A stretch of DNA of 64,000 nt from positions 434,001 through 498,000 of the forward strand of contig BSDZ01000003.1 of NCBI GenBank assembly GCA_030268105.1, given 5' to 3'. Within the stretch, counting starts at the first letter, position 1. Each line of letters starts with the position of its first letter. The notes under the pieces were generated by a model. That model saw only the letters and a program-made list of their open reading frames with translations, did no database searches and had not been told where the DNA came from. The DNA is from Volvox africanus (Eukaryota; Chlorophyta; Chlorophyceae; Chlamydomonadales; Volvocaceae). Positions 1-50,590 of this stretch are shown one piece after another. Position numbers and translations under genes: made by a program.

Positions 1-3000
1 GTAAATATTTGCAATGCTTTCAGGCCTGCCTGGACCTTATTGCATCATTAAATAGTATATGTGCATGGCTCACTCTCAGGAACCTGCCCTAATCATCAGC
101 CAGCTGGAAGCTAACCATCGACTCTCGGCCAGCCCAAACCTATTGAAATTTGCAATGCGCCCAGGCCTGCCCGGACCTTATTGCATCATTCATTGGTATA
201 TGTGCATTGCGCACTCTCAACAACCTTCCCTGGTAATCAGCTAGCAGGAATCTTACCAGGGACTCTCAGCCAGCCCAAAACCTAATGAAATTTGCAATGC
301 GCCCAGGCCTGTCTGGCCCTTATTGCATCATTCATTGGTATATGTGAATTGCGCACTCTCAACAACCTGCCCTGATCATCAGCCAGCGGGAATCTAAGCA
401 GTGACTCTCGGCCAGCCCAAACCTATTGAAAATTGCAATGCGCCCTGGCCTGCCTGGCCCTTATTGCATCATTCATTGGTATATGTGCATTGCGCAGTCT
501 CAACAACCTTCCAGCGGGAATCTAACCGGCGACCCTCGGCTAGCCCAAACCTGTTAAAATTTGCAATGCGCCCAGGCCTGCCTGGCCCTTTTTGCATCAT
601 TTATTGTTATATGTGCATCGCGCACTCTCAACAACCTGCCAGCGGGAATCTAACCGGCGACATTCGGCCAGCCCAAACCAATTGAAAGTTGCAATGCGCC
701 CAGGTCTGCCTGGCCCTTATTGCATCAATCATCGGTACATGATCATTGCGCACTCTCAACAACCTGCCCTGATCATCAGCCAGCGGGAATCAAACCAGCG
801 ACTCTCGGACACCCCAAACCTGTTAAACCTCTTAATATTTGCAATGCGCCCAGGCCTGCCTGGCCCTTGTTGCATCATTAATTGATATATATGCATTGCG
901 CAGTTTTAACAACCTGCCAGAGGGAATCTAACCGGTGACTCTCGGCCAGCCCAAACCTGTTATTATTTGCAATTCTTTTAAGGCTGCCCGGCCCTTATTG
1001 CATCATTCATTGGTATATGTGCATTGCGCACTCTCAACAACCTGCCAGCGGGAATCTAACTGGCGACCCTCGGCTAGCCCAAACCTGTTAAAATTTGCAA
1101 TGCGCCCAGGCCTGCCTGGCCCTTATTGCATCATTCATTGTTATATGTGCATCGCGCACTCTCAACAACCTGCCAGCGGGAATCTAACCGGTGACTCTCG
1201 GCCAGCCCAAACCTGTTATTATTTGCAATTCTTTCAAGGCTGCCCGGCCCTTATTGCATCATTCATTGGTATATGTGCATTGCGCACTCTCAACAACCTG
1301 CCAGCGGGAATCTAATTGGCGACCCTCGGCTAGCCCAAACCTGTTAAAATTTGCAATGCGCCCAGGCCTGCCTGGCCCTTATAGCATCATTCATTGTTAC
1401 ATGTGCATCACGCACTCTCAACAACCTGCCAGCGGGAATCTAACCGGTGACTCTCGGCCAGCCCAAACCTGTTATTATTTGCAATTCTTTTAAGGCTGCC
1501 CGGCCCTTATTGCATCATTCAATTGTATATGTGCATTGCGCACTCTCAACAACCTGCCAGCGGGAATCTAACTGGCGACCCTCGGCTAGCCCAAACCTGT
1601 TAAAATTTGCAATGCGCCCAGGCCTGCCTGGCCCTTATTGCATCATTCATTGTTATATGTGCATCGCGCACTCTCAACAACCTGCCAGCGGGCATCTAAC
1701 CAGCGACTCTTGGCCAGCCCAAAACCTATTGAAATTTGCTATGCGCACAGGCCTGCCTGGACCTTATTGCATCATTAATTGGTATATGTGCATCGCGCAC
1801 TCTCAACAACCTGCCAGCGGGCATTTAACCAGCGACTCTTAGCCAGCCCAAACCTATTGAAAATTGCAATGCGCCCAGGCCTGCCTGGCCCTTATGGCAT
1901 CATTGATTGGTATATGTGCATTGCGCACTCTCAACAACCTGCCAGAGGAAATCTAACCTGCGACCCTCGGCCAGCCCAAACCTATTGAAAATTGCAATGC
2001 GCCCAGGCCTGCCTGGCCCTTATTGCATCATTTATTCTTATATGTGCATGGCTCACTCTCAACAACCTGCCAGCGGAAATCTAACCGGTGACTCTCGGCC
2101 AGCCCAAACCTGTTTATATTTGCAATGCTTTCAAGGCTGCCCAGCCCTTATTGCATCCTTAATTCTTATATTTGCATGGCTCACTCTCCGGAACCTGCCC
2201 TGATCATCAGCCAGCGGGCATCTAACCAGCGACTCTCGGCCAGCCCAAACCTATTGAAAGTTGCAATGCACCCAGGCCTGCCTGGCCCTTATTGCATCAT
2301 TCATTGGTATATGTGCATCGCGCACTCTCAACAACCTGCCAGCGGGCATCTAACCAGCGACTCTTGGCCAGCCCAAACCTGTTTATATTTGCAATGCGCC
2401 CAGGCCTGCCTGGCCCTTATTGCATCATTCATTGTTATATGTGCATTGCAGAGTCTCAACAACCTGCCAGCGGGAATCTAACTGGCGACCCTCAGCCAGC
2501 CCAAACCTATTGAAAATTGCAATGCGCCCAGGCCTGCCTGGCCCTTATTGCATCATTCATTGGTATATGTGCATCGCTCACTCTCAACAACCTGCCAGCG
2601 GGCATCTAACCAGCGACTCTTGGCCAGCCCAAACCTGTTTATATTTGCAATGCGCCCAGGCCTGCCTGGCCCTTTTTGCATCATTCATTGTTATATGTGC
2701 ATTGCAGAGTCTCAACAACCTGCCAGCGGGAATCTAACCAGCGACTCTTGGCCAGCATAAACCTGTTTATATTTGCAATGCCCCCAGGCCTGCCTGGCCC
2801 TTATGGCATCATTCATTGGTATATGTGCATTACAAAGTCTCAACAACCTGCCAGCGGGCATCTAACCAGCGACTCTTGGCTAGCCCACACCTGTTCTTAT
2901 TTGCAATGCGCCCAGGCCTGCCTGGACCTAATTCTATCATTCATTGTTATATGTGCATGGCTCACTCTCAACAACCTTCCCTGATCATCAGCCAGCGGGC

Positions 3001-28138: not shown

Positions 28139-28962
28139 TGTTGTACCTCTTGTTCGCGTTTGCTCAGAAGTATCTGCACGTCTGGAGACTATGGACACCG
28201 ATGCGCGAGCACTTGCAAGTACAGCAAGGCAAGCGAGAGCAAACAGAGACAGTGGAAGACTTCAAGACGAAGAGAGATATAACTTACGGTCTTACAGATC
28301 GGAATGATGCAATGGACGAAATCGCCGTCAGCGCCGGAAGCAAGCAATCATCACGCGGCGGTGATTAGCGAAGTTCAGGCTTAGCTCGGGCTAAGTAGAA
28401 TATCGTATAGCAATAGTAATGTAGAACACACAAGTGTTCTCCGGTATCGAATGTCTTGTCTAGCTTAGCCGTCCTCGCATCTGTTATACTCGCAGCATCG
28501 CAGTGCCGTACGATTCACATTAGGAGGCCGATCCTAGATGTGACAACCCTACTGCGTATGGGCGATGTCTACTCGTAACAACGTATAAGCCTTTCCGGCA
28601 TTCGCATGATGCAAGGGTCCGGATAACGATATCCGGTTGCAGGGCATGTATCGCGACGAGGGCGGCGCTCTCAACGTGTGCTTAAATGAAGTAATATTAT
28701 ATCAGATAATATTACTTATCGTTTCGTAGCACAAGCATAATGCGCACTTCAATGATTCGGTCATTCATGCATGCTAGGCGGATTTGCCATGATGCGATGT
28801 CGTGATGGATAATGACAACATGCCAGATGCATATATAAATGTATGCGAATACATTTATATCATGCAGATTCATTCATATGTAATGCGTTCATCACAAAAG
28901 CACTTCGCCTTGTAGGATCGCGTCGACCTACACGTCGGCGGGAAATGAACCGTAGCACAACA
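28139..28962 (-). repeat. 3' LTR of outer element
   Basis: An 824-bp LTR read on the minus strand, with ends TGTTGT and ACAACA. Left of it are the satellite and target duplication CCCAG. Right of it is the purine tract of the minus-strand element. It pairs with 44354-45177. About 14 differences were counted by eye, mostly transitions and about 8 of them at CpG sites. It contains the same series of inverted repeats as the other LTRs, for example the 12-bp-arm palindrome around AAGTAATATTAT. Confidence 0.95.
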
Positions 28963-28977
28963 ATTATCCCCCCTCCC
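28963..28977 (-). other. Polypurine tract of outer element
   Basis: On the minus strand this reads GGGAGGGGGGATAAT and directly abuts the LTR start TGTTGTGC. This is the expected place for the plus-strand priming site of an LTR retrotransposon. The same 15 bases precede the 3' LTR at 36969. Confidence 0.9.
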
Positions 28978-29021
28978 GTATGCAGCGTCCTCGCTGCATC
29001 ATACAGCATCGACTGCAGGGG

Positions 29022-30320
29022 TCATTGGGCTTGCGTGGCACGTTTGCGAGCTTCTTCGAGCAGGGGTTTCATGTCCTGTGAGAAGTTGCGTGCCGGTTCC
29101 CATGAGTTGTGCTCGTCGGTATACCCTGTCCACTTAACCAAGTACTCGTGTACTGTTCGCTTACGTCGGTGTCGGCCCACACGACGCGCGCGATAATCTA
29201 ACACCCGCTCCACATCGTAAAACTTCTGTTTACCAGCGATCCAGGTCTCGGGAACTGGTTCGATCGCTGCGGGGGCGTTAGCAGGCTCAGGGACGGGTTC
29301 CGTACTACGATACGGACGAACAAGAGATACGTGAAACGTGGGGTGAATGGTCATATCAGTGGGCAATGCAAGCTCCACAGCCACATTCCCAACCATGCGC
29401 ATGACAGGATACGGACCAATCCAGCGGGGTAAGAGTTTTCGGGATCCGTCGGCCAAGGAACGCAAGTTCTTGGTGCTTAGCAACACGAGTTGCCCCTCCG
29501 AAAACGTCACATCCTGTTTGGATTTGTTATAGTATTCCGTCGTTCGTTGCTGCGCCGCGTCCAAACACGACTTAGCGTCTGTGATTCGGGACATAAAAGA
29601 CTTGGCAAAAAGTTTAGCAGCAGGCACGTTCACTTCCAACTCACGCCACACGGGTAGCGCGGGATGAAACCCGTAGTTAAGAAAGAACGGACTTTTGCCT
29701 GTAGAGCGGTTAACAGCGTTGTTAAGCGCGAATTCTGCCGCAGTCAAATATGTATCCCAAACAAGTGGTGTGCGACCAGCATAATTGCGCAACATATCAC
29801 CCAACGTGCGGTTTGTGCGTTCGGTTTGACCATCAGTCTGCGGGTGATACGCCGTGCTCAGATTGACGCGCATGCCAACTAGTTTGCAGAGCGCTTCCCA
29901 AAACTTAGACGTGAACTGTCCACCGCGGTCCGAGATCACATTTTTGGGAATCCCGTGTAACCGAACCACATTATCGAAAAACAAACGTGCGGTTTGCTCA
30001 GCCGTGCAGGATGATGTGCATGGTGCTAGGTGAACCATCTTAGTCAGACGATCGACCATTACGAACACCGCATCGTATCCCCCCTCAGTTTTGGGCAGCG
30101 CGACTACGAAGTCCATGGAAACACTTTCCCAAGGCGCATCCGGGACAGGCAACGGTTGCAACAACCCATGGCCCTTACCGGACAAAGCCTTATTGCGCTG
30201 GCACAGACTGCATGTCTGGACGAAGTTCGCCGCATCCTTAGCCAAACGAGGCCACCAAAAGGAACGTTGCACCAAGTCGATCAATCACTTGCTACCAGGG
30301 TGTCCTGCTAACGGGTCCTC
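29022..30320 (-). pseudogene. pol: Outer element pol, 3' part: integrase and chromodomain
   Basis: The C-terminal 433 codons of pol, cut off from the rest by the element inserted at 30321. Read on the minus strand it starts in the integrase zinc-binding region (HPG..., then CSLC), carries the catalytic core ([36 protein letters not shown]), a GPY module (GPYPVMRM) and a chromodomain (residues around [17 protein letters not shown]), and ends with a stop at 29022-29024. It contains a nonsense codon at 30285-30287, where the inner copies have CGA (Arg) and this one has TGA, a CpG-type change. In a live element the integrase inserts the cDNA, and chromodomains of this class target modified histones. 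This piece is dead because it is both separated and stopped. Confidence 0.92.
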
Positions 30321-31145
30321 TGTTGTGCTACGATTCATTTCCCGTCGACGTGTAGGTCGACGCGATCCTATGAGTCGAAGTGCTTTTGTGATGAACGCAT
30401 TACATATGAATGAATCTGCATGATATAAATGTATTCGCATACATTTATATATGCATCTGGCATGTTGTCATTATCCATCGCGACATCGCACCATGGCAAA
30501 TTCGCCTAGCATGTATGAATGACCTAATCATTGAAGTGCGCATTATGCTCGTGCTACGAAACGATAAGTAATATTATCTGATATAATATTACTTCATTAA
30601 AGCACACGTTGAGAGCGCCGCACTCGTCGCGATGCATGCCCTGCAACCGGATATCGTTATCCGGACCCTTGCATCATGCGAATGCCGGAAAGGCTTATAC
30701 GATTGTTATACGTAGACATCGCCTAGACGCAGTAGGGTTGTCACATCTAGGATCGGCCTCCTGATGTGAATCGTACGGCATTGCGATGCTGCGAGTATAA
30801 CAGATGCGAGGACGGCTAAGCTAGACAAGACATTCGATACCGGAGAACACTCGTGTGTTCTATATCACTATTCCTATACACTATTCTACTTAGCCCGAGC
30901 TAAGCCTGAACTTCGCTAATCACCGCCGCGTGATGATTGCTTGCTTCCGGCGCTGACGGCGATTTCGTCCATTGCATCATTCTGACCCGTAAGACTGTAA
31001 GTTATATCTCTCTTCGTCTTGAAGTCTTCCGCTGTCTCTGTTTGCTCTCGCTTGCCTTGCTGTACTTGCAAGTGCTCGCGCATCGGTGTCGATAGTCTCC
31101 AGACGTGCAGATACTCATGAGCAAACGCGAACGAAAGGTACAACA
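30321..31145 (+). repeat. 5' LTR of inner element
   Basis: 825 bp, TGTTGTGCTACG at the left and GGTACAACA at the right, followed by the PBS. It contains at least seven perfect or near-perfect inverted repeats: 30343-30362, 30423-30450 (12-bp arms, includes ATATAAA, a possible TATA box), 30566-30594 (12-bp arms), 30647-30664, 30741-30769, 30844-30861 and 30889-30904. Four of these have four-base loops TCGC, TCGT, TCGT and CCGA. The transcription start and poly(A) site are not identified. Confidence 0.95.
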
Positions 31146-31148
31146 ATT

Positions 31149-31212: not shown

Positions 31213-31308
31213 ATGGCGAGTTCCAACGACGAACCACGAGGACCGCTAGATACTTTTGCCGAAGACTTAGGCCGCGCCGTTTTGGACGCCGCCGCTTCCG
31301 GTTTGTAA
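31213..31308 (+). CDS. Conserved 31-codon upstream ORF in the gag leader
   Basis: ATG GCG AGT TCC ... TTG TAA encodes 31 residues beginning MASSNDEPRGPLDTF and ending LDAAASGL. It is the first ATG after the PBS and lies about 300 bp upstream of gag, in the same frame as gag but closed by TAA. The same ORF is intact in the other three copies (37857-37952, 44191-44286 minus, 60756-60851) with only one or two residue changes. It may be a regulatory uORF, or the first exon of a spliced Gag, since GTAAGT and CAG/GT splice-like motifs follow at about 31348-31373. Nothing in the sequence decides between these. Confidence 0.45.
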   Translation: MASSNDEPRGPLDTFAEDLGRAVLDAAASGL

Positions 31309-31611
31309 TTGTTTAATTGCTTTTGCTTAGATTGCTGCACTTGTTGTGTAAGTGTACGCTCTGAGTCGCAGGTAATCTCAGTGCACCGGCATTGCTTGCC
31401 GCGGCGACTGAGACCGGCGTTCGTCCGGACCAGTTGGCGACTCTCATTGCTCAAACTACGGAGATCAGGACTCAGCTGGGCAATTACTTGCTGAGTTTGC
31501 TGAATCTTCTCAAGAGTACTGTCGGTAGGCTCACCGAGTCGCTTTGTACTCTTGCCTTTGCGATAGAAGTCGGCTTCTATTACGCAAAACTAGGGTATCG
31601 TTTCGTGCTCC
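31309..31611 (+). other. Leader between uORF and gag
   Basis: About 300 bp of untranslated leader. The reading frame from 31365 is open to 31646 and yields an Ala/Leu-rich stretch (LAAATETGVRPDQLATLIA...), overlapping the gag start in another frame. The stretch has non-synonymous changes between copies (V/F, Q/H), so coding status is doubtful. GTAAGT at about 31348 and GTCGCAGG at about 31366-31372 resemble splice sites. Confidence 0.4.
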
Positions 31612-32847
31612 ATGTCCGCGGAACACGACGATACGCCGCACACTAGCCTAGCTAGCCAACCCGATTTCGTTGTAGCTGCTAGAGCGCCGGATAGAGGTCT
31701 TGAGACTGTTGGCGCGCGAGCCACTCAAGAGCCCCTTTTCCTTCAGACCCCTGCTCACTTAATTGTGCCGCATTCAGCAGTGAACACGAATATGGACAAC
31801 ACTGCTGGACCAAGGGTTCTGCCATTACCTCAAGCTCGAGGGCATGATGACATCCCTGAGGTGATGAGATTGTCGATTCCCGTTCCTAGGCTCAATATTT
31901 CGCTGACCGACAAGACACCAGGGCATAGCATAGCCGATGCAACTCGTGCGTACGTGCGTGACGCTAAAAAGTACCTCCAAGCTGTTCATGGTGGCGACAA
32001 TGACGGTATCAGGTGTCTCTTCGTTGGTAACACCCTCGAGGGCGCAGCGAAGGACTGGTATCGCAATTGGACCAACGCCCGGGGCAGCTATACTTTTGAC
32101 GAGTTAGTCGCCGCTTTGCTCGCACGATTCGCTACTGAGGTTCAAGCACGCGATGTGGAAGCTCGTAACGTTTTGGCAGCGGGTAGCTACCACATGCGTC
32201 GGGATGAAAATGTACCTGCGTACCAGTCACGCTTCGAAGCACTTGTGACTCCCATTGCTGACCTCACCGAATCTGAGCGTGTCTTTTGGTTTAGGCGAGG
32301 CCTAACGAAACTTTTGGCTAAATGGTGCGCCACTGACTTGGTTGGAGCGCAGATCAAGTCGTATGACGCGTTGGTCGCTTTTGCTAAGGGCGCGGAGATA
32401 CGACTTCTTGCCGGCGAGGAAGAAGTCAAGTCTGCCCCTCGTGCAAATGCCGTGCAAGTGCAGGATCCGCTTGGGGAAGCTGTAGCTCTCGACCAGGACC
32501 TCGGCGCGACCCGCCCCACGCCTACTGCCGCGACGCGACGCGGCAACGGGCAACGCAAGGCGCGCGGGGGCGCTAGCTCGGGTGTCCGTGGTACAGGAGG
32601 GGCAGGTCCGAGCTCGGACCCAGCTAGGAACAGGAAGCGTGGTGGTGCGCCGTCGTCGGCAGCCGCACAGCGTTCCGACCCCAACGCGAAGCGTACTCGT
32701 ACGGACGACACATTTATGCCAAAATGGAATTGCAATCGTTCCGAATTCGAGCGTCGAAAATTGGCCAACGTTTGTCTACGGTGTGCGGAGAGCCATTCTA
32801 CGAAGGATTGCCCTCTAATGCCGCCGTTTGTACCTCAGCCGAAATAG
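31612..32847 (+). CDS. gag: Gag (capsid and nucleocapsid) of inner element
   Basis: 411 aa from ATG at 31612 to TAG at 32845-32847. This start is the first ATG of the open frame and is shared by all copies. The N-terminal ~100 residues are unrecognised. Residues ~145-265 resemble the Retrotrans_gag capsid domain (AKDWYRNW; FDELVAALLARF; VPAYQSRFEALV; FWFRRGL). A basic, Ala/Gly/Arg-rich linker follows, then one zinc knuckle near the C-terminus (CLRCAESHSTKDC), spaced C-X2-C-X3-H-X4-C, one residue shorter than the usual CCHC box. Gag forms the cytoplasmic virus-like particle that packages element RNA. Pol continues in the same frame after the stop codon, so Gag-Pol would be made by UAG readthrough. 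Confidence 0.93.
   Translation: MSAEHDDTPHTSLASQPDFVVAARAPDRGLETVGARATQEPLFLQTPAHLIVPHSAVNTNMDNTAGPRVLPLPQARGHDDIPEVMRLSIPVPRLNISLTDKTPGHSIADATRAYVRDAKKYLQAVHGGDNDGIRCLFVGNTLEGAAKDWYRNWTNARGSYTFDELVAALLARFATEVQARDVEARNVLAAGSYHMRRDENVPAYQSRFEALVTPIADLTESERVFWFRRGLTKLLAKWCATDLVGAQIKSYDALVAFAKGAEIRLLAGEEEVKSAPRANAVQVQDPLGEAVALDQDLGATRPTPTAATRRGNGQRKARGGASSGVRGTGGAGPSSDPARNRKRGGAPSSAAAQRSDPNAKRTRTDDTFMPKWNCNRSEFERRKLANVCLRCAESHSTKDCPLMPPFVPQPK
32845..32847 (+). promoter_or_regulatory. In-frame UAG between gag and pol (readthrough candidate)
   Basis: Context CCG AAA TAG GGG CTT GCC. Reading continues open in the same frame for 1353 codons. The same UAG and following GGGCTTGCCC (a short self-complementary stretch) are present in the minus-strand copy (42652-42654) and the third copy (62388-62390). 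The first in-frame ATG after it is at 33121, about 90 codons in. Gammaretroviruses use UAG-G readthrough for Gag-Pol. Use of that strategy here is inferred. Confidence 0.7.
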
Positions 32848-35800
32848 GGGCTTGCCCGGGTTCCTGCGGAGGGGGCTCTACCTGGGTTTTCTGAACTAAC
32901 GCGTGGTCGGTGGTCATCCTTACGGCCAGCCGTTAAGGCATTGTTGCCTTGTGTACTTGGACACATCGAGCGAGTCATTGCGCGACGCATCACGCTTGAC
33001 GGACGCACGGGACTTCTCTGCTTCGATCCGTTGTGTAATGTGTTTACACCTCGCCGTCCCCTGTCGTCTATTGATCTGTCCAACCACGTGGTTTTGTTCA
33101 TCCCCTCGTCTCTGCGTGAGATGTCGGAACAGTTGGCCATGTACAGGAGGTGTAGGCGTCAATATCCAGACACTGCCGCATGTGTTTTACTCCCCGCTTT
33201 CTGTCGGCGCAAGGCAGAGGCATCGTTAAGGGGTATGCGGCATGTCCACCGGTTCGAGCCGGGCACCGTTTTGTTTAATGGTGTGGATCGGGAGGGTACG
33301 TTGGCTCCGTGGCCACACCTATCCTACTCGGTTGACGTTTGGTACGAAGCTCCTGATGGGGGTGCCGTTGGTTACGGGCCCGCCTTAAGTGCACTGACGT
33401 TGTCTGCTGGGCAGTCGCTCGTAGATAACCGTGTCCCTGTGGTTCAGATCGGTTTGAATGGCCGTACTCTGAAGGCACTTGTTGACACCGGTGCCAGCGA
33501 CGACTTCATCTCTGTCGCAGAGGTGAATGCGCTGGGGTTGTCCCCAGAGTCGTCTGATTGTCCACAGGTTACCCTTGCTGACGGGGGTAAGCATCCCATC
33601 GTGGGCAGGATTACCCTTAGCCTATCGTTAGGCCCTTTGCGTGTTGTGACCCGGCCGTACGTGCTGCAGGGCTTAGCAGAGACTGCACCGTACATAATGG
33701 GGTCGTCGACATTACGACAGTACCGCGCGCGCATCGACATGGAGACCGCAACCCTGCATATGTGCAAGGATACTCTGTCGATTAAGGTACCTTTCCTGTC
33801 ATTCGAACATGTCACACCAAAGGAGGGCGAAACTGAGGCGGTGCCTATGGTTAATTTCGCTGTGACCGCAATGGCCGCGCGAATCGAACCAGAGCTAGTC
33901 GGGCGTAAGGAGGCCGTCCGTTTGTTACGGAAGGGTGCCCACGGACTGCTTTTAAGGCCGCGGGTGAGCTGTTGTGTCACCACCGCGCAGATTTCTGTGG
34001 ATCCTGAGGTTGAGGCCCTACTGTCGCAGTATGAGGACGTCTTTAAAGATATCCCTGGCCTACCACCTATGCGTCCTGTTGATCACACAATCCCTCTCAT
34101 GCCTGGAGCGCAGCCTACAGCCCGGCCAATGTACAGGTTGAGTCCATTGGAGCTGGATGAGGTGAAGCGCCAGGTGACGGATTTGCTCGCGAAGGGTATG
34201 ATACGCCCCAGCACATCCCCGTATTCTGCACCGATTTTGTTTGTCGGTAAGAAGGATGGGACCTTGCGCATGTGCATCGATTACCGGGGGTTAAATGCGA
34301 ATACGGTGAAAAATCGCTACCCTTTGCCTCGCGTCGACGACCTGTTGGATAAGCTGAAGGGCTCGGCTTATTTTTCCTCAATTGACTTACAACAGGGCTA
34401 CAATCAGATTCGCATCGCTGCCTCTGATATCCCGAAAACCGCTTTTCGGACGCCCTTCGGTCACTTTGAGTATACGGTCCTATCATTTGGTTTGACTAAT
34501 GCCCCTGCGACGTTTCAGGCGGTTATGGACCGAATGTTTAGGCCGTTTATCGACAGGTTCGTTGTTTGCTACCTGGATGACATCTTGGTATATTCTAAGA
34601 CGCGCGAGGAGCACTTGGAGCATCTGCGGCTCGTGCTCGACGTTATGAGGCGGGAGCAATTGTTTGCTAAACGCGCCAAATGCTTTTGGGCGCAGCCTCA
34701 GGTGGAATATTTGGGCCACATTGTGTCGGCCACCGGTGTGAAGATGGACCCGCGGAAGGTCGCCGTGGTTCGCGATTGGCCCGCGCCTCAGAACCTCACG
34801 GAACTGCGTAAGTTCCTTGGCTTGACCAATTATTTCCGAAAGTTCATTGAAAAATATTCCATCATTGCGGCCCCGCTTACTAACTTAACTCGCAAAGGCG
34901 TTTTCGTTTCGCTCGAGTCGTGGACGTCGCAATGCCAGCGGGCATTCGAAGAGCTCAAACGAATCGTTGCCGAAGATGTCACCCTTGCATTCCCTGATTA
35001 CTCGTTGCCATTTCGTGTTGAGGTAGTGTCTGATGCCTCAATATTTGGAAGCGGCGCTGTATTGTTACAGGAAGGGCGACCGATCGCCTTCACGAGTAAG
35101 AAGTTTTCTGGTGCGGAGATTCGCTACACCACCGGGGAACAGGAGCTTCTGGCCGTGCTGCATGCTTTAAAGGAATGGCGCTGTTACCTCGAGGGACGCC
35201 CGTTTACTTTAAAGACTGACCATAAGCCCCTAACGTTTTTGCAAAGCGTTCCGACGTTGAACCGCCGTCAAGCTAGGTGGATGGAATATCTAGCTAGGTT
35301 CAACTGCACCTGGGAGTATATTTCTGGTAAATTGAATATTGCCGATGCTCTCAGTCGACATCCGTCGCTACACGCTGCAATTTTGGCAGCGCCCGTCGTG
35401 CGGCCGCGTAGCGAGGAGGTTCCGATCGCGACGGACCTCGCGGAGCGGTTGAAGGTTGCCTACAGCGCAGACGCTTGGTTCGCGGACCCGGCTAATGTAG
35501 AAAACCTTCGCAAGCAGAATGGCCTTTGGCTACGGACGGAGGGTGCAGCTACGCAAATCGTCGTTCCGAACGACGACGCGCTACGCTACGACATCCTTGC
35601 GCGGTTCCACGAGGACCCGTTAGCAGGACACCCTGGTAGCAAGCGATTGATCGACTTGGTGCAACGTTCCTTTTGGTGGCCTCGTTTGGCTAAGGATGCA
35701 GTGAACTTCGTCCAGACATGCAGTCTGTGCCAGCGCAATAAGGCTTTGTCCGGTAAGGGCCATGGGTTGTTGCAACCGTTGCCTGTCCCGGATGCGCCTT

Positions 35801-36909
35801 GGGAAAGTGTTTCCATGGACTTCGTAGTCGCGCTGCCCAAAACTGAGGGGGGATACGATGCGGTGTTCGTAATGGTCGATCGTCTGACTAAGATGGTTCA
35901 CCTAGCACCATGCACATCATCCTGCACGGCTGAGCAAACCGCACGTTTGTTTTTCGATAATGTGGTTCGGTTACACGGGATTCCCAAAAATGTGATCTCG
36001 GACCGCGGTGGACAGTTCACGTCTAAGTTTTGGGAAGCGCTCTGCAAATTAGTTGGCATGCGCGTCAACCTGAGCACGGCGTATCACCCGCAGACTGATG
36101 GTCAAACCGAACGCACAAACCGCACGTTGGGTGATATGTTGCGCAATTATGCTGGTCGCACACCACTTGTTTGGGATACATATTTGACTGCGGCAGAATT
36201 CGCGCTTAACAACGCTGTTAACCGCTCTACAGGCAAAAGTCCGTTCTTTCTTAACTACGGGTTTCATCCCGCGCTACCCGTGTGGCGTGAGTTGGAAGTG
36301 AACGTGCCTGCTGCTAAACTTTTTGCCAAGTCTTTTATGTCCCGAATCACAGACGCGAAGTCGTGTTTGGACGCGGCGCAGCAACGAACGATGGAATACT
36401 ATAACAAATCTAAGCAGGATGTGACGTTTTCGGAAGGGCAACTCGTGTTGCTAAGCACCAAGAACTTGCGTTCCTTGGCCGACGGATCCCGAAAACTCTT
36501 ACCCCGCTGGATTGGTCCGTATCCTGTCGTACGCATGGTTGGGAATGTGGCTGTGGAGCTTGCATTGCCCGCTAATATGCCCATTCACCCCACGTTTCAC
36601 GTATCGCTTGTTCGTCCGTATCGTGGTACGGAACCCGTCCCTGAGCCTGCTAACGCCCCCGCAGCGATCGAACCAGTTCCCGAGACCTGGATCGCTGGTA
36701 AACAGAAGTTTTACGATGTGGAGCGGGTGTTAGATTATCGCGCGCGTCGTGTGGGCCGACACCGACGTAAGCGAACAGTACACGAGTACTTGGTTAAGTG
36801 GACAGGGTATACCGACGAGCACAACTCATGGGAACCGGCACGCAACTTCTCACAGGACATGAAACCCCTGCTCGAAGAAGCCCGCAAACGTGCCACACAA
36901 GCCCAATGA
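32848..36909 (+). CDS. pol: Pol polyprotein: protease, RT, RNase H, integrase, chromodomain
   Basis: 1353 codons, in frame with gag and open from just after its UAG to TGA at 36907-36909. In Gag-Pol numbering from 31612, an unassigned ~200-residue module comes first. Protease DTGA follows at residue 625 ([11 protein letters not shown], 33484-33495). RT contains [24 protein letters not shown] and the active site YLDD at 987-990 (34570-34581). RNase H has SDAS (Asp at 35032-35034), [14 protein letters not shown] and ADALSR. Integrase has an HHCC region ending CSLC and a core D1403-X60-D1464-X35-E1500 (codons 35818, 36001, 36109), then GPYPVVRM. A chromodomain lies at about 1700-1752 ([17 protein letters not shown]). 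All catalytic residues are present. The protein copies element RNA into cDNA in the particle and integrates it. It is the only copy in the window with complete pol. Confidence 0.95.
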
Positions 36910-36968: not shown

Positions 36969-37789
36969 TGTTGTGCTACGATTCATTTCCCGTCGACGTG
37001 TAGGTCGACGCGATCCTATGAGTCGAAGTGCTTTTGTGATGAACGCATTACATATGAATGAATCTGCATGATATAAATGTATTCGCATACATTTATATAT
37101 GCATCTGGCATGTTGTCATTCATCGCGACATCGCACCATGGCAAATTCGCCTAGCATGCATGAATGACCTAATCATTGAAGTGCGCATTATGCTCGTGCT
37201 ACGAAACGATAAGTAATATTATCTGATATAATATTACTTCATTAAAGCACACGTTGAGAGCGCCGCACTCGTCGCGATGCATGCCCTGCAACCGGATATC
37301 GTTATCCGGACCCTTGCATCATGCGAATGCCGGAAAGGCTTATACGTTGTTATGCGTAGACATCGCCTAGACGCAGTAGGGTTGTCACATCTAGGATCGG
37401 CCTCCTAATGTGAATCGTACGGCATTGCGATGCTGCGAGTATAACAGATGCGAGGACGGCTAAGCTAAAAAAGATATCCGATACCGGAGAACACTCGTGT
37501 GTTCTAAATTACTATTTCTATACACTAATCTACTTAGCCCGAGCTAAGCCTTAACTTCGCTAATCACCGCCGCGTGATGATTGCTTGCTTCCGGCGCTGA
37601 CGGCGATTTCGTCCATTGCATCATTCCGACCTGTAAGACCGTAAGTTATATCTCTCTTCGTCTTGAAGTCTTCCGCTGTCTTTGTTTGCTCTCGCTTGCC
37701 TTGCTGTACTTGCAAGTGCTCGCGCATCGGTGTCGATAGTCTCCAGACGTGCAGATACTCATGAGCAAACGCGAACGAGAGGTACAACA
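36969..37789 (+). repeat. LTR shared by the inner element and the following truncated element
   Basis: 821 bp, TGTTGTGCTACG to GGTACAACA. It serves as 3' LTR of the element at 30321 and, because a PBS and leader follow at once, also as 5' LTR of the partial element at 37790. It differs from the 30321 LTR by several indels (four bases missing at about 37120; ATACGTTG) and many substitutions (AGCTAAAAAAGATATCCG). It therefore has a separate history from the LTR at 30321. Confidence 0.93.
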
Positions 37790-39008
37790 ATTTGGTATCG
37801 AGACCGGTTCGTTGCCTAACTGTCTCTCTTTGTCTAATCGGAAGTAGGTTCTTTCTATGGCGAGTTCCAGCGACGAACCACGAGGACCGCTAGATACTTT
37901 TGCCGAAGACTTAGGCCGCGCCGTTTTGGACGCCGCCGCTTCCGGTTTGTAATTGTTTAATTGCTTTTACTTAGATTGCTGCACTTGTTGTGTAAGTGTA
38001 CGCTCTGAGTCGCAGGTAATCTCAGTGCACCGGCATTGCTTGCCGCGGCGACTGAGACCGGCGTTCGTCCGGACCAGTTGGCGACTCTCATTGCTCAAAC
38101 TACGGAGATCAGGACTCAGCTGGGCAATTACTTGCTGAGTTTGCTGAATCTTCTCAAGAGTACTGTCGGTAGGCTCACCGAATCGCTTTGTACTCTTGCC
38201 TTTGCGATAGAAGTCGGCTTCTATTACGCAAAACTAGGGTATCGTTTCGTGCTCCATGTCCGCGGAACACGACGATACGCCGCACACTAGCCTAGCTAGC
38301 CAACCCGATTTCGTTGTAGCTGCTAGAGCGCCGGATAGAGGTCTTGAGACTGTTGGCGCGCGAGCCACTCAAGAGCCCCTTTTCCTTCAGACCCCTGCTC
38401 ACTTAATTGTGCCGCATTCAGCAGTGAACACGAATATGGACAACACTGCTGGACCAAGGGTTCTGCCATTACCTCAAGCTCGAGGGCATGATGACATCCC
38501 TGAGGTGATGAGATTGTCGATTCCCGTTCCTAGGCTCAATATTTCGCTGACCGACAAGACACCAGGGCATAGCATAGCCGATGCAACTCGTGCGTACGTG
38601 CGTGACGCTAAAAAGTACCTCCAAGCTGTTCATGGTGGCGACAATGACGGTATCAGGTGTCTCTTCGTTGGTAACACCCTCGAGGGCGCAGCGAAGGACT
38701 GGTATCGCAATTGGACCAACGCCCGGGGCAGCTATACTTTTGACGAGATAGTCGCCGCTTTGCTCGCACGATTCGCTACTGAGGTTCAAGCACGCGATGT
38801 GGAAGCTCGTAACGTTTTGGCAGCGGGTAGCTACCACATGCGTCGGGATGAAAATGTACCTGCGTACCAGTCACGCTTCGAAGCACTTGTGACTCCCATT
38901 GCTGACCTCACCGAATCTGAGCGTGTCTTTTGGTTTAGGCGAGGCCTAACGAAACTTTTGGCTAAATGGTGCGCCACTGACTTGGTTGGAGCGCAGATCA
39001 AGTCGTAC
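37790..39008 (+). mobile_element. Truncated second inner element (leader and partial gag)
   Basis: This 1219-bp stretch corresponds collinearly to 31146-32364 of the inner element with only about half a dozen differences seen: PBS from 37793 (TGGTATCGAGACCGG, one change), uORF at 37857-37952, and gag from 38256. Homology stops within gag after AAGTCGTA (39001-39008). Nine filler bases follow, then an inverted LTR end at 39018. The LTR-internal-LTR-internal layout is what unequal or intra-element recombination between LTRs produces. Confidence 0.9.
38256..39008 (+). pseudogene. gag: Gag, 3'-truncated
   Basis: Starts with the same ATG and residues as the intact gag (MSAEHDDTPHTSL) and stays open for 251 native codons through the capsid-like region, ending after GAQIKSY. 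The frame then runs 12 codons into filler and inverted-LTR sequence to a stop at 39045-39047. It lacks the basic linker and the zinc knuckle, so it could not package RNA normally. One visible change is L to I in the FDELVAALL region. Confidence 0.9.
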
Positions 39009-39017
39009 GGTTGTATT

Positions 39018-39500
39018 GTTGTACCTTTCGTTCGCGTTTGCTCATGAGTATCTGCACGTCTGGAGACTATCGACACCGATGCGCGAGCACTTGCAAGTAC
39101 AGCAAGGCAAGCGAGAGCAAACAGAGACAGCGGAAGACTTCAAGACGAAGAGAGATATAACTTACAGTCTTACGGGTCAGAATGATGCAATGGACGAAAT
39201 CGCCGTCAGCGCCGGAAGCAAGCAATCATCACGCGGCAGTGATTAGCGAAGTTCAGGCTTAGCTCGGGCTAAGTAGAATAGTGTATAGGAATAGTGATAT
39301 AGAACACACGAGTGTTCTCCGGTATCGAATGTCTTGTCTAGCTTAGCCGTCCTCGCATCTGTTATACTCGCAGCATCGCAATGCCGTACGATTCACATCA
39401 GGAGGCCGATCCTAGATGTGACAACCCTACTGCGTCTAGGCGATGTCTACGTATAACAATCGTATAAGCCTTTCCGGCATTCGCATGATGCAAGGGTCCG
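39018..39500 (-). repeat. Inverted LTR fragment (3' portion of an LTR)
   Basis: The reverse complement of about the last 483 bp of an LTR, starting exactly at the LTR terminus TGTTGTACC. It matches the 5' LTR at 30321-31145 with one difference I can find (a CpG-type change at about 39238), including private variants ATAGGAATAGTGATAT and ATAACAATCG. It is much less similar to the LTRs at 36969 or 28139. The fragment ends in GGTCCG (39495-39500), which is shared with the integrase sequence that follows. This is a deletion junction with 6 bp of microhomology. Confidence 0.93.
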
Positions 39501-42500
39501 AGATCACATTTTTGGGAATCCCGTGTAACCGAACCACATTATCGAAAAACAAACGTGCGGTTTGCTCAGCCGTGCAGGATGATGTGCATGGTGCTAGGTG
39601 AACCATCTTAGTCAGACGATCGACCATTACGAACACCGCATCGTATCCCCCCTCAGTTTTGGGCAGCGCGACTACGAAGTCCATGGAAACACTTTCCCAA
39701 GGCGCATCCGGGACAGGCAACGGTTGCAACAACCCATGGCCCTTACCGGACAAAGCCTTATTGCGCTGGCACAGACTGCATGTCTGGACGAAGTTCGCCG
39801 CATCCTTAGCCAAACGAGGCCACCAAAAGGAACGTTGCACCAAGTCGATCAATCGCTTGCTACCAGGGTGTCCTGCTAACGGGTCCTCGTGGAACCGCGC
39901 AAGGATGTCGTAGCGTAGCGTGTCGTCGTTTGGAACGATGATTTGCGTAGCTGCACCCTCCGTCCGTAGCCAAAGGCCATTCTGCTTGCGAAGGTTTTCT
40001 ACATTAGCCGGGTCCGCGAACCAGGCGTCTGCGTTGTAGGCAACCTTCAACCGCTCCGCGAGGTCCGTCGCGATCGGTACCTCCTCACTACGCGGCCGCA
40101 CGACGGGCGCTGCCAAAATTGCAGCGTGTAGCGACGGATGTCGACTGAGAGCATCGGCAATAGTCAATTTACCAGAAATATACTCCCAGGTGCAGTCGAA
40201 CCTAGCTAGGTATTCCATCCACCTAGCCTGACGGCGGTTCAACGTCGGAACGCTTTGCAAAAACGTTAGGGGCTTATGGTCAGTCTTTAAAGTAAACGGG
40301 CGTCCCTCGAGGTAACAGCGCCATTCCTTTAAAGCATGCAGCACGGCCAGAAGCTCCTGTTCCCCGGTGGTGTAGCGAATCTCCGCACCAGAAAACTTCT
40401 TACTCGTGAAGGCGATCGGTCGCCCTTCCTGTAACAATACAGCGCCGCTTCCAAATATTGAGGCATCAGACACTACCTCAACACGAAACGGCAACGAGTA
40501 ATCAGGGAATGCAAGGGTGACATCTTCGGCAATGATTCGTTTGAGCTCTTCGAATGCCCGCTGGCATTGCGACGTCCACGACTCGAGCGAAACGAAAACG
40601 CCTTTGCGAGTTAAGTTAGTAAGCGGGGCCGCAATGATGGAATATTTTTCAATGAACTTTCGGAAATAATTGGTCAAGCCAAGGAACTTACGCAGCTCCG
40701 TGAGGTTCTGAGGCGCGGGCCAATCGCGAACCACGGCGACCTTCCGCGGGTCCATCTTCACACCGGTGGTCGACACAATGTGACCCAAATATTCCACCTG
40801 AGGCTGCGCCCAAAAGCATTTGGCGCGTTTAGCAAACAATTGCTCCCGCCTCATAACGTCGAGCACGAGCCGCAGATGCTCCAAGTGCTCCTCGCGCGTC
40901 TTAGAATATACCAAGATGTCATCCAGGTAGCAAACAACGAACCTGTCAATAAACGGCCTAAACATTCGGTCCATAACCGCCTGAAACGTCGCAGGGGCAT
41001 TAGTCAAACCAAACGATAGGACCGTATACTCAAAGTGACCGAAGGGCGTCCGAAAAGCGGTTTTCGGGATATCAGAGGCAGCGATGCGAATCTGATTGTA
41101 GCCCTGTTGTAAGTCAATTGAGGAAAAATAAGCCGAGCCCTTCAGCTTATCCAACAGGTCGTCAACGCGTGGCAAAGGGTAGCGATTTTTCATCGTATTC
41201 GCATTTAACCCCCGGTAATCGATGCACATGCGCAAGGTCCCATCCTTCTTACCGACAAACAAAATCGGTGCAGAATACGGGGATGTGCTGGGGCGTATCA
41301 TACCCTTCGCGAGCAAATCCGTCACCTGGCGCTTCACTTCGTCCAGCTCCAATGGACTCAACCTGTACATTGGCCGGGCCGTAGGCTGCGCTCCAGGCAT
41401 GAGAGGGATTGTGTGATCAACAGGACGCATAGGTGGTAGGCCAGGGATATCTTTAAAGACGTCCTCATACTGCGACAGTAGGGCCTCAACCTCAGGATCG
41501 GCAGAAATCTGCGCGGTGGTGACACAACAGCTCACCCGCGGCCTTAAAAGCAGTCCGTGGGCACCCTTCCGTAACAAACGGACGGCCTCCTTACGCCCGA
41601 CTAGCTCTGGTTCGATTCGCGCGGCCATTGCGGTCACAGCGAAATTAACCATAGGCACCGCCTCAGTTTCGCCCTCCTTTGGTGTGACATGTTCGAACGA
41701 CAGGAAAGGTACCTTAATCGACAGAGTACCCTTGCACATATGCAGGGTTGCGGTCTCCATGTCGATGCGCGCGCGGTACTGTCGTAATGTCGACGACCCC
41801 ATTATGTACGGTGCAGTCTCTGCTAAGCCCTGCAGCACGTACGGCCGGGTCACAACACGCAAAGGGCCTATCGATAGGCTAAGGGTAATCCTGCCCACGA
41901 TGGGATGCTTACCCCCGTCAGCAAGGGTAACCTGTGGACAATCAGACGACTCTGGGGACAACCCCAGCGCGTTCACCTCTGCGACAGAGATGAAGTCGTC
42001 GCTGGCACAAGTGTCAACAAGTGCCTTCAGAGTACGGCCATTCAAACTGATCTGAACCACAGGGACACGGTTATCTACGAGCGACTGCCCAGCAGACAAC
42101 GTCAGTGCACTTAAGGCGGGTCCGTAACCAACGGCACCCCCATCAGGAGCTTCGTACCAAACGTCAACCGAGTAGGATAGGCGTGGCCACGGAGCCAGCG
42201 TACCCTCCCAATCCACACCATTAAACAAAACGGTGCCCGGCTCGAACCGGTGGACATGCCGCATACCCCTTAACGAAGCCTCTGCCTTGCGCCGACAGAA
42301 AGCAGGGAGTAATACACATGCGGCAGTGCCTGGATATTGACGCCTACATCTCCTGTATATGGCCAACTGTTCCGACATCTCACGCAGAGACGAGGGGATG
42401 AACAAAACCACGTGGTTAGACAGATCGATAGACGACAGGGGACGGCGAGGTGTAAACAAATTACACAACGGGTCGAAGCAGAGAAGTCCCGTGCGTCCGT

Positions 42501-42651
42501 CAAGCGTGATGCATCGCGCAATGACTCGCTCGATATGTCCAAGTACACAAGGCAACAATGCCTTAACGGCTGGCCGTAAGGATGACCACCGACCACGCGT
42601 TAGTTCAGAAATCCCAGGTGGTGCCCCCTCCACAGGAACCCGGGCAAGCCC
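39436..42651 (-). pseudogene. pol: Pol of the minus-strand element, truncated in integrase
   Basis: The minus-strand frame opens directly after the gag UAG (42652-42654), in frame with gag. It carries the N-terminal unassigned module, protease, RT (YLDD present), RNase H, and integrase up to the second catalytic Asp (NVISD). Native sequence ends at about 39501. The frame then reads through LTR-derived bases to a stop at 39436. The protease motif is DTCA instead of DTGA (42004-42015), a Gly-to-Cys change in the active-site triad that should disable it. Most of the integrase core's third acidic region, the GPY module and the chromodomain are absent on this side; equivalents lie at 29022-30320. 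The piece 39495-39888 repeats 29930-30320 with one difference, so this side of the break is probably chimeric. Confidence 0.92.
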
Positions 42652-43887
42652 CTATTTCGGCTGAGGTACAAACGGCGGCATTAGAGGGCAATCCTTCGTG
42701 GAATGATTCTCCGCACACCGTAGACAAACATTGGCCAATTTCCGACGCTCGAATTCGGAACGATTGCAATTCCATTTTGGCATAAATGTGTCGTCCGTAC
42801 GAGTACGCTTCGCATTGGGGTCGGAACGCTGTGCGGCTGCCGTCGACGGCACACCACCACGCTTCCTGTTTTTAGCTGGGTCCGAGCTCGGACCTGCTCC
42901 TCCTGTGCCACGGACACCCGAGCTAGCGCCCCCGCGCGCCTTGCGTTGCCCGTTGCTGCGTCGCGTCGCGGCAGTAGGCGTGGGGCGGGTCGCGCCGAGG
43001 TCCTGGTCGAGAGCTACAGCTTCCCCAAGCGGATCCTGCACTTGCACGGCATTTGCACGAGGGGCAGACTTGACTTCTTCCTCGCCGGCAAGGAGTCGTA
43101 TCTCCGCGCCCTTAGCAAAAGCGACCAACGCGTCATACGACTTGATCTGCGCTCCAACCAAGTCAGTGGCGCACCATTTAGCCAAAAGTTTCGTTAGGCC
43201 TCGCCTAAACCAAAAGACACGCTCGGATTCGGTGAGGTCAGCAATGGGAGTCACAAGTGCTTCGAAGCGTGACTGGTACGCAGGTACATTTTCATCCCGA
43301 CGCATGTGGTAGCTACCGGCTGCCAAAACGTTACGAGCTTCCACATTGCGTGCTTGAACCTCAGTAGCGAATCGTGCGAGCAAAGCGGCGACCAACTCGT
43401 CAAAAGTATAGCTGCCCCGGGCGTTGGTCCAATTGCGATACCAGTCCTTCGCTGCGCCCTCGAGGGTGTTACCAACGAAGAGACACCTGATACCGTCATT
43501 ATCGCCACCATGAACAGCCTGGAGATACTTTTTAGCGTCACGCACGTACGCACGAGTTGCATCGGCTATGCTATGCCCTGGTGTCTTGTCGGTCAGCGAA
43601 ATATTGAGCCTAGGAACGGGAATCGACAATCTCATCACCTCAGGGATGTCATCATGCCCTCGAGCTTGAGGTAATGGCAGAACCCTTGGTCCAGCAGTGT
43701 TGTCCATATTCGTGTTCACTGCTGAATGCGGCACAATTAAGTGAGCAGGGGTCTGAAGGAAAAGGGGCTCTTGAGTGGCTCGCGCGCCAACAGTCTCAAG
43801 ACCTCTATCCGGTGCTCTAGCAGCCACAACAAAATCGGGTTGGCTAGCTAGGCTAGTGTGCGGCGTATCGTCGTGTTCCGCGGACAT
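42652..43887 (-). CDS. gag: Gag of the outer minus-strand element
   Basis: 411 aa, the same length as the plus-strand gag, from ATG at 43887 to TAG at 42654-42652. It has the capsid-like region (AKDWYRNW; FWFRRGL) and zinc knuckle CLRCAENHSTKDC, again C-X2-C-X3-H-X4-C. There is no break. It differs from the inner gag by a few residues (for example ARNVEARN for ARDVEARN; PAKNRKRGGVP). Pol follows in frame after the UAG. With the element interrupted downstream and its protease motif changed, the copy as a whole is not autonomous. Confidence 0.93.
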   Translation of the reverse strand: MSAEHDDTPHTSLASQPDFVVAARAPDRGLETVGARATQEPLFLQTPAHLIVPHSAVNTNMDNTAGPRVLPLPQARGHDDIPEVMRLSIPVPRLNISLTDKTPGHSIADATRAYVRDAKKYLQAVHGGDNDGIRCLFVGNTLEGAAKDWYRNWTNARGSYTFDELVAALLARFATEVQARNVEARNVLAAGSYHMRRDENVPAYQSRFEALVTPIADLTESERVFWFRRGLTKLLAKWCATDLVGAQIKSYDALVAFAKGAEIRLLAGEEEVKSAPRANAVQVQDPLGEAVALDQDLGATRPTPTAATRRSNGQRKARGGASSGVRGTGGAGPSSDPAKNRKRGGVPSTAAAQRSDPNAKRTRTDDTFMPKWNCNRSEFERRKLANVCLRCAENHSTKDCPLMPPFVPQPK

Positions 43888-44190
43888 GAAGCACGAAACG
43901 ATACCCTAGGTTTGCGTAATAGAAGCCGACTTCTATCGCAAAGGCAAGAGTACAAAGCGATTCGGTGAGCCTACCGACAGTACTCTTGAGAAGATTCAGC
44001 AAATTCAGCAAGTAATTGCCCAGCTGAGTCCTGATCTCCGTAGTTTGGGCAATGAGAGTCGCCAAATGGTCCGGACGAAAGCCGGTCTCAGTCGCCGCGG
44101 CAAGCAATGCCGGTGCACTGAGATTACCTGCGACTCAGAGCGTACACTTACACAACAAGTGCAGCAATCTAAGCAAAAGCAATTAAACAA

Positions 44191-49800: not shown

Positions 49801-50590
49801 CCCAGGCCTGCCTGGCCCTTATTGCATCATTTATTGGTATATGTGCATTGCGCACTCTCAACAACCTGCCCTGATCATCAGCCAGCGGGAATCTAACCAG
49901 CGACCCTAAGCCAGCCCGAACCTATTGAAAGTTGCAATGCGCCCAGGCCTGCCTGGCCCTTATTGCATCATTCATTGGTATATGTGCATCGTGCACTCTC
50001 AACAACCTGCCAGCGGGCATCTAACCAGCGACTCTCGGCCAGCCCAAACCTATTGAAAGTTGCAATGCGCCCAGGCCTGCCTGGCCCTTTTGGCATCATT
50101 TATTGGTATATGTGCATCTCGCACTCTCAACAACCTGCCAGCTGGCATTTAACCAGCGACTCTCAGCCAGCCCAAACCTATTGAAAATTGCAATGTGCCC
50201 AGGCCTGCCTGGCCCTTATGGCATCATTCATTGGTATATGTCCATCGCGCACTCTCAATAACCTGCCAGCGGGCATCTAACCAGGGACTCTCGGCCAGCC
50301 CAAACCTATTGAAAATTGCAATGCGCCCAGGCCTGCCTGGCCCTTATTGCATCATTTATTCTTATATGTGCATGGCTCACTCTAAACAACCTGCCAGCGG
50401 AAACCTAACCGGTGACTCTCGGCCAGCCCAAACCTGTTATTATTTGCAATGCGCCCAGGCCTGCCTGGACCTAATTGCATCATATATTCTTATATGTGCA
50501 TGGCTCACTCTCAACAACCTTCCCTGATCATCATCCAGCGGGCATCTAACCAGCGACTCTCGGCCAGCCCAAACCTATTGAAAGTTGCAA
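46850..50590. repeat. 1319-bp higher-order repeat, about 2.8 copies
   Basis: Matching monomer series begin near 46850, 48169 and 49488, each 1319 bp apart, and fade out near 50590. 1319 = 10 x 128 + 3 x 13, so each unit is ten monomers with three of the long form. The first two copies appear almost identical, including the private variants CAGATCTGCC and CATCACGCAC. Confidence 0.9.

Follow-up and report, generated by a model that had tools for sequence, protein, structure and literature searches.

How a retrotransposon makes its Pol proteins when a stop codon closes gag directly before pol is the question raised by a 64,000-nucleotide stretch of the Volvox africanus genome (positions 434,001 to 498,000 of contig BSDZ01000003.1, assembly GCA_030268105.1; hereafter the window). 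The window holds copies of a chromodomain-bearing Ty3/gypsy element in which gag and pol share one reading frame and are separated by a single UAG. From our analyses of the window and of related copies in the genome, we conclude that this UAG very probably acts as a type III readthrough signal in the chromodomain Ty3/gypsy elements of V. africanus. An earlier reading of the window, made from the sequence only, had proposed programmed readthrough, possibly helped by RNA structure downstream of the stop. The proposal of readthrough is supported by the presence of the UAG in four element families and by purifying selection on pol codons that precede the first ATG. The proposed help from RNA structure is supported by synonymous constraint in one of these families and by a hairpin, starting 8 nt after the stop, whose stem covaries between families.

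In the proposed mechanism, most ribosomes would terminate normally at the UAG and release Gag, and a few would decode it as an amino acid, giving a smaller amount of Gag-Pol. The signal would consist of the UAG and a purine-rich triplet, either GGG or GAA, then a spacer of 7 nt and a conserved 7-bp stem with an 18-nt loop. The stem, lying near the ribosome entry channel, may slow or alter the ribosome and so favor readthrough, and the loop may additionally, and more tentatively, pair with seven nucleotides of pol located 226 nt farther on. Readthrough by the ribosome, the rate at which it would occur and the role of the stem as its stimulator are what we infer from these sequence comparisons.

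The UAG at the gag-pol border

Three copies in the window span the border. In copy A (plus strand), the gag open reading frame (ORF) extends from 31594 to 32847 (417 amino acids from stop to stop, first ATG at 31612) and ends in the proposed readthrough codon, UAG at 32845-32847, which is followed by G; the pol ORF (32848..36909, 1353 amino acids) begins with the next codon and ends in TGA. In copy B (minus strand), the gag ORF (42652..43905) ends in UAG at 42654-42652, and the pol piece (39436..42651, 1071 amino acids) is broken off in the integrase. Gag and pol abut in a single frame in both copies, with the stop alone between them. Copy C has its UAG at 62388-62390 on the plus strand and is considered dead, because further in-frame stops flank it on either side (300 nt before the UAG and 330 nt from it onward were read). 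The sequence-only reading had described the TAG as followed by GGGCTTGCCCGGG in all three copies, which was confirmed at each of these positions. Its statement that pol stays open in the gag frame held for copies A and B, which have an intact gag, and did not extend to copy C. The stretch of about 90 codons that it described as lacking an ATG was likewise found, the in-frame ATGs among the first 200 pol codons of copy A being codons 92, 98 and 130.

The closest gag proteins are those of V. africanus with VaNZ11 locus tags; the genome of strain 1101-NZ-11 has been described (PMC10291315). We searched the V. africanus assembly (141.0 Mb) for further borders, which we assigned to families A to D. 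A 34-nt border pattern that did not specify the stop codon and tolerated up to three mismatches matched 1215 places, and its reversed control none. When 19 exact flanking bases of family A were required and any codon was allowed at the site, TAG was found in 1007 of 1009 places. The corresponding control, in which the codon before the stop was allowed to vary, returned AAA in 1007 of 1014. Because this neighboring codon is kept about equally well, the count within family A mainly reflects the youth of the copies.

Family B was found with a degenerate pattern for pol sequence located 26 codons past the stop; the pattern excluded family A and left the stop unconstrained, and all of its 100 matches were fetched. 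A TAG lay in frame exactly 26 codons (78 nt) upstream of the pattern in 93 of them; the remaining seven comprised two sense codons (AAG and TTG), four shifted or rearranged copies and one masked copy. The seven old and decayed copies of family C have TAG in six cases and TAC in one, and only three of them are readable in a single frame on both sides (L060 and L161 with TAG, L165 with TAC). Both copies of family D have TAG at the same 78-nt distance. Twenty further places, hand-picked for diversity among 100 of 245 matches, fall into families A (16, of which 15 have TAG), B (one) and D (two), plus one degraded copy; together they show TAG 18 times, TTG once and, in the degraded copy L177, no stop (ACG at the counted position, the gag end being shifted). 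One copy (L059) has a single open frame running from the stop across the protease region. The conservation of UAG across genomic copies, named by the sequence-only reading as a check, was therefore found in both large families, in which sense codons at the site are rare.

All four families stop with UAG, and neither UAA nor UGA occurs as a family stop. The following bases are GGG in families A and D and in most copies of family C, and GAA in family B (90 of 90 in-register rows); one family C copy has UAG-U. Copy A and a copy of family B share 45 of the last 80 gag residues and 52 of the 77 residues at pol codons 14-90. Over these pol codons the median number of synonymous substitutions per synonymous site (dS) between families A and B is 2.46, computable for 42 of 52 pairs and near saturation. 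Since four families carry the UAG and the synonymous sites of A and B are nearly saturated, its retention exceeds what mere copying would give.

A gag protein of Volvox reticuliferus, 55% identical, has the same end point at the protein level. Seven public pol proteins (including the query, P0016) are ORFs of 1320-1423 amino acids with no gag domain listed, and no pol relative with a fused gag domain was found among the matches listed. A search of viral contigs found no relative.

Runs of copies spaced about 10.8 and 11.0 kb apart occur on contigs C25 (1192230-1235503) and C3 (1582751-1604741) of the assembly (G000). This regular spacing indicates segmental duplication rather than separate insertions.

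Selection around the stop codon

Nucleotides and codons are counted here from the UAG, negative numbers lying in gag. Codon changes in family B were counted by parsimony on a tree of 84 distinct sequences, obtained from the 90 rows left after 10 of the 100 had been removed as out of register; codons in stretches of low local identity were masked in the counts of synonymous variation. Per site, synonymous events number 5.5 at codons -80 to -1 and 4.2 at codons 14-130, and amino-acid events 1.1 and 1.25, respectively. For codons 1-13 (32848..32886 on the plus strand in copy A), 12 synonymous events in 10.7 sites correspond to 1.1 per site, and amino-acid events amount to 1.45 per site. This stretch has the lowest synonymous variation and the fewest synonymous events of 185 windows. 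Compared with 676 synonymous events in about 144 sites elsewhere, the deficit has a binomial p of 6.6e-10, or 1e-5 on internal branches alone; random draws of 13 codon columns give p 8e-5. Amino-acid events are not reduced (p 0.25). All these p values assume that events are independent. Codons 14-21 are still low, with seven synonymous events in 4.3 sites, and the block from -13 to -1 has the second highest synonymous variation of the 16 blocks listed (0.31 per site). Between families A and B, the median dS is 0.65 at codons 1-13 versus 2.46 at codons 14-90. Because synonymous changes in family B are depleted, amino-acid changes are not, and dS between A and B is low, the stretch directly 3' of the stop is, judged by these substitution patterns, constrained more as RNA than as protein.

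Purifying selection, the second property that had been put forward for examination, is present on both sides of the UAG. The ratio of nonsynonymous to synonymous substitution rates (dN/dS) at pol codons 22-90 of family B is 0.29 over all branches and 0.19 over internal ones, and the median between families A and B at codons 14-90 is 0.10 (again with 42 of 52 pairs computable). The first common in-frame ATG in family B is codon 130 (70 of 90 rows). Since purifying selection precedes the first ATG, codon 92 in family A, codons 22-90 appear to be translated from something upstream.

A hairpin downstream of the UAG

The 5' arm of the hairpin lies at +8 to +14 (32855..32861) and the 3' arm at +33 to +39 (32880..32886), both on the plus strand of copy A, so that a spacer of 7 nt separates the UAG from a stem of 7 bp with a loop of 18 nt. 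The last codon of the 3' arm, codon 13, is also the end of the most constrained window. In a scan of 108 nt across 111 distinct rows from families A to D, this stem was the longest conserved helix, and an additional 6-bp helix was found at +56..70. The scan was entered by 172 rows, not all of them free of indels (L011 has one), and left out L177 and the family C copies L039, L163 and L164; the degraded, stopless L177 was also excluded from the splice-context, long-range and permutation tests.

Covariation between families is seen at two stem pairs. Pair +11/+36 is G-C, G-U or A-U depending on the family or copy, and pair +14/+33 is U-A in most rows of family A and A-U in most rows of family B. 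RNAalifold, applied to 24 thinned sequences, gave the stem pair probabilities of 0.83-1.0 and an energy of -11.1 kcal/mol for +1..60; column-shuffled alignments reached the energy in 0 of 300 cases for +1..45, 0 of 300 for +1..60 and 0 of 200 for +1..75. We further examined the stem together with the candidate long-range helix in a gapless alignment of 25 rows, hand-chosen as intact and diverse and including only L161 of family C. In this alignment 97.7% of the cells are paired, 22 cells show two-sided changes and the covariation score is 0.192, and none of 500 shuffles reached the paired share, the number of two-sided cells or the score. Sliding the partner by one to three columns lowered pairing to 38-67%.

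A pseudoknot after the stop had been suggested as something to look for. No helix of at least 4 bp between the loop and +40..+75 was present in at least 85% of the 111 rows, so that at these thresholds the compact gammaretrovirus-type pseudoknot was not found; the loop of the 7-bp hairpin has, instead, a candidate partner 226 nt away.

Evidence against readthrough and alternative explanations

Several observations weigh against this account. The four families have a common ancestry, so the kept UAG does not represent four independent events. In family A, synonymous variation after the stop (0.057 per site, compared with 0.092 upstream and 0.044 downstream) is not depleted, although the family is uninformative in this respect, its copies being young and many having been fetched by a pattern within that very stretch. 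Five of the seven stem pairs lack two-sided change, and three of these are invariant in the 25-row set. Of 500 shuffles, 134 reached the number of pairs with two-sided change in that set (three), and 463 reached the number of further pair types. When only families A and B are used, 7 of 1000 codon permutations and 5 of 1000 column permutations match the stem score. Shorter helices (4-5 bp) that show two-sided changes also came out of the scan, for example -21/+14; these are taken for chance. Single-sequence folds of seven stretches are no stronger than shuffles (z +0.65 to -0.55), and in copy A the stem has a competing fold, with a mean pair probability of 0.13 for +1..+60.

Pol could be reached by other routes, of which splicing is the least improbable. 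In some transcripts an intron might remove the UAG and join pol in frame, so that unspliced RNA would give Gag and spliced RNA Gag-Pol or Pol, and the gag-prot/RT border (RT, reverse transcriptase) of Ogre elements is described as spliced (PMC6317226). A deposited gene model of the Volvox element implies two GT...AG introns in the gag leader (31301-31371 and 31525-31777), another, P0008, fuses gag to the protease and skips the border, and the TAG could itself be an intron end. Such deposited models carry little weight, because gene predictors avoid stops. Purifying selection on pol codons 22-90 confines any acceptor to about codon 21 or earlier, and the sequence there is a poor acceptor context: the 17 nt before the stop are just 41-53% pyrimidine, and 73 of 76 rows have a nearer AG, at -6. 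Synonymous variation is high upstream, where a branch point and pyrimidine tract would be placed, and lowest directly downstream. In the genomic sequence, an intervening intron of the Ogre type was not seen at the border, both sides coding up to the stop without a pyrimidine-rich tract. Judged from this sequence, we regard splicing as unlikely.

Separate production of Pol, in which ribosomes would reinitiate or enter internally downstream of the stop, at an AUG or non-AUG codon, appears more improbable still. Termination-reinitiation between Gag and Pol is described for victoriviruses (PMC3542737), and an initiation signal might account for the constrained stretch that follows the stop. However, no in-frame ATG precedes codon 92 in copy A, the first common one in family B is codon 130, and codons 22-90 are under selection. 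The UAG precedes the pol pattern by exactly 78 nt in 93 of the 100 places of family B and in 18 of the 20 further places from families A, B and D, which indicates that the frame across the stop is kept, something that separate initiation would not need. The UAG might also be an inert defect of a master copy, inherited and amplified. The near-identity of family A, in which the UAG is kept no better than the adjacent codon, and the many dead copies would agree with this, but the presence of the UAG in four families with nearly saturated synonymous sites between A and B, the purifying selection on both sides and the synonymous constraint adjoining the UAG make an inert defect the least probable of these explanations, and hardly credible. 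Frameshifting was rejected, since pol is in the gag frame. Reassignment of UAG was rejected as well: 62 HSP70 exon matches in the host genome hold 5 TAG, 7 TAA and 3 TGA codons (in 12 of the 62), so that TAG is not in excess, and the genetic code of the host is ordinary as far as these exons show.

Comparison with known systems

Readthrough of the UAG, as preferred here, has relatives in several systems. The sequence-only reading had described Ty3/gypsy elements as having mostly a fused ORF or a frameshift. A single ORF is indeed given as usual in the chromovirus 'Plants cluster' (PMC10085805), but the statement needs correction, because in-frame UGA stops between gag and pol are described for Tj1 of Schizosaccharomyces japonicus, Tosmo1-3 and Tcry1; Tj1 without the stop is inactive, the stop being required for its integration activity (PMC4600332, PMC10085805). 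These elements, too, are of the Ty3/gypsy chromovirus type with gag and pol in the same frame and a single stop between them, and the pol of Tj1 is likewise described as having no starting AUG. They differ in host, the Tj1 group consisting of fission-yeast chromoviruses and the element studied here living in a green alga, and in signal. Their UGA lies within a conserved 8-nt context, and the text compared names no downstream hairpin, whereas the Volvox element has UAG-G, a conserved hairpin and perhaps long-range pairing.

Type III readthrough signals are described as a UAG with a G or a purine-rich stretch on its 3' side and an RNA structure 3' of it (PMC3542737). Murine leukemia virus resembles the Volvox element in its UAG-G, the shared frame, the 3' structure and the output of Gag versus Gag-Pol, with a spacer of 8 nt compared with 7 nt here (PMC3542737). 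Gammaretroviruses are reported to require a compact pseudoknot (PMC3542737), whereas in the Volvox element only a hairpin is supported locally, and the two signals presumably arose separately. The type III signals of Tombusviridae (UAG-GGR; PMC3542737, Table 5) share with the Volvox element the UAG-GGG (UAG-GAA in family B), a close 3' structure and, as a candidate, a distant pairing. In Tombusviridae the long-distance pairing belongs to the replicase gene of an RNA virus; in Volvox the candidate partner lies 226 nt off in pol and the evidence is weaker.

Among algal elements, Chlamyvir is a clade of chromoviruses, and Chlamyvir chromodomains have been counted in Volvox carteri (PMC3350952, PMC6317226). 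The Volvox element resembles Chlamyvir as a chromodomain Ty3/gypsy element of green algae, a likeness of domain and host; the Chlamyvir descriptions compared are silent on a gag-pol stop (PMC3350952, PMC6317226). Ogre shares the interrupted polyprotein and the green lineage, but its intervening region averages 274 bp, whereas the Volvox border is one stop codon with both sides coding (PMC6317226). No report of readthrough in algal retrotransposons was recognized in the open-licence literature searched. What is new here is that the stop is a UAG, accompanied by a covarying hairpin, and that the host is a green alga; the in-frame stop itself was already known.

Control of the Gag to Gag-Pol ratio by a stop codon had previously been known from gammaretroviruses and a few fungal Ty3 elements. 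A type III UAG signal with a covarying hairpin in an algal chromovirus suggests that the stop-codon solution has originated repeatedly. The hundreds of copies in this one genome form a natural mutagenesis set in which, at a site of recoding, constraint on the protein is told apart from constraint on the RNA. As both Volvox and Chlamydomonas are tractable, a direct test of readthrough is possible.

A candidate long-range pairing

The loop segment GAGGGGG (32869..32875, +22 to +28) could pair with TCCCCTC (33101..33107, +254 to +260, pol codons 85-87), both on the plus strand of copy A. Loop and partner are GAGGGGG/TCCCCTC in family A, GAGGGGA/TCCCCTC in family D and the aligned copy of family C, and GAAGGGA/TCCCTTC in family B. 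Among the distinct rows of families A, B and D that were in register (120, after exclusion of 21 of 168 rows that were out of register to +300), 95.8% form all seven pairs. At +24/+258 a G-C pair is replaced by A-U through two synonymous changes, and codons 85 and 86 of family B show zero synonymous events.

Counting against the pairing, 17 pol codons with enough synonymous sites, 85-86 included, have zero events, and the covariation score was matched by 35 of 1000 codon permutations. A conserved 7-bp helix with the loop arose by chance in 147 of 300 permutations at the 85% level and in 103 of 300 at the 90% level; the reversed loop also finds a 7-bp helix at 85%, and only 5 bp at 90%. Because a plain helix is so common by chance, the case comes down to the covarying pair and the silent codons 85-86, which are suggestive of pairing between the hairpin loop and pol 226 nt downstream. 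It is possible, and we put it forward tentatively, that this green-algal long terminal repeat (LTR) lineage independently evolved a two-part switch, consisting of a hairpin 7 nt after UAG-G and a loop pairing 226 nt downstream. If true, this would be a tombusvirus-like design inside a Ty3/gypsy element.

The N-terminal domain of Pol and the gag leader

The candidate long-range partner lies inside a domain at the start of pol with an adenine-methyltransferase-like fold (32920..33372, plus strand, about residues 25-175), which precedes the protease and is perhaps kept partly for its RNA. The motif NPPF is characteristic of methyltransferases, and the domain in pol is probably a methyltransferase-like domain without the catalytic motif. 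It is clearly common to the public pol proteins P0016-P0020, which are 35-52% identical in the stretch compared. The likeness is weaker in P0021 and P0022, that of P0021 being judged by eye. Pfam has no match to the first 201 pol residues, even at E up to 1. An initial structure model of the N-terminus, built from three sequences (predicted local distance difference test score, pLDDT, 48), yielded no more than weak matches, which included acetyltransferases, and was set aside.

The gag leader (31213-31777) would contain exons at 31213-31300 and 31372-31524 and the putative GT-AG introns at 31301-31371 and 31525-31777 mentioned above. The exons reproduce the start of the deposited V. africanus protein P0004 almost exactly, and by this comparison the leader seems to be spliced. 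An in-frame gag start also lies open within intron 2, so that Gag could have two different N-termini. The deposited models P0009, P0013 and P0015 skip the gag core and keep the leader and the CCHC end; they might represent genuine alternative transcripts or artefacts of gene prediction.

Organization of the elements in the window

Copy A is a chromovirus (Ty3/gypsy) by its protease-RT-RNase H-integrase order, its C-terminal chromodomain and its flanking LTRs. Self-BLAST places the 5' LTR, with TG...CA ends, at 30321..31145 and the 3' LTR at 36969..37789 (plus strand); the pair is 97.9% identical, with 17 mismatches and 4 gap columns over 827. A possible primer-binding site starts at 31146 on the same strand, directly 3' of the 5' LTR. 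Gag has a capsid-like domain and a CCHC-like C-terminus; its Pfam matches, Retrotrans_gag (E=4.8e-05) and Ty3_capsid (E=9.1e-05), are both under the curated cut-off. Pol comprises methyltransferase-like, protease, RT, RNase H, integrase and chromodomain regions, all but the first of which have Pfam matches; the chromodomain (PF00385, E=3.2e-11) occupies residues 1289-1337 (36712..36858, plus strand).

The 3' LTR of copy A is followed by the internal region of another copy (36969-39007), forming tandem elements with one common LTR, and this second element breaks off where the inverted copy starts. A fourth, truncated copy on the minus strand (28139-30320) consists of a pol end and an LTR and includes a 420-codon open piece at 29022-30284. 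The elements are flanked by two large satellite arrays (99-28062 and 45178-57242) with 128- and 141-base spacings, for which Tandem Repeats Finder gave periods of 128, 256, 269, 384 and 397; their GC skew is near -0.23, and they are possibly centromeric.

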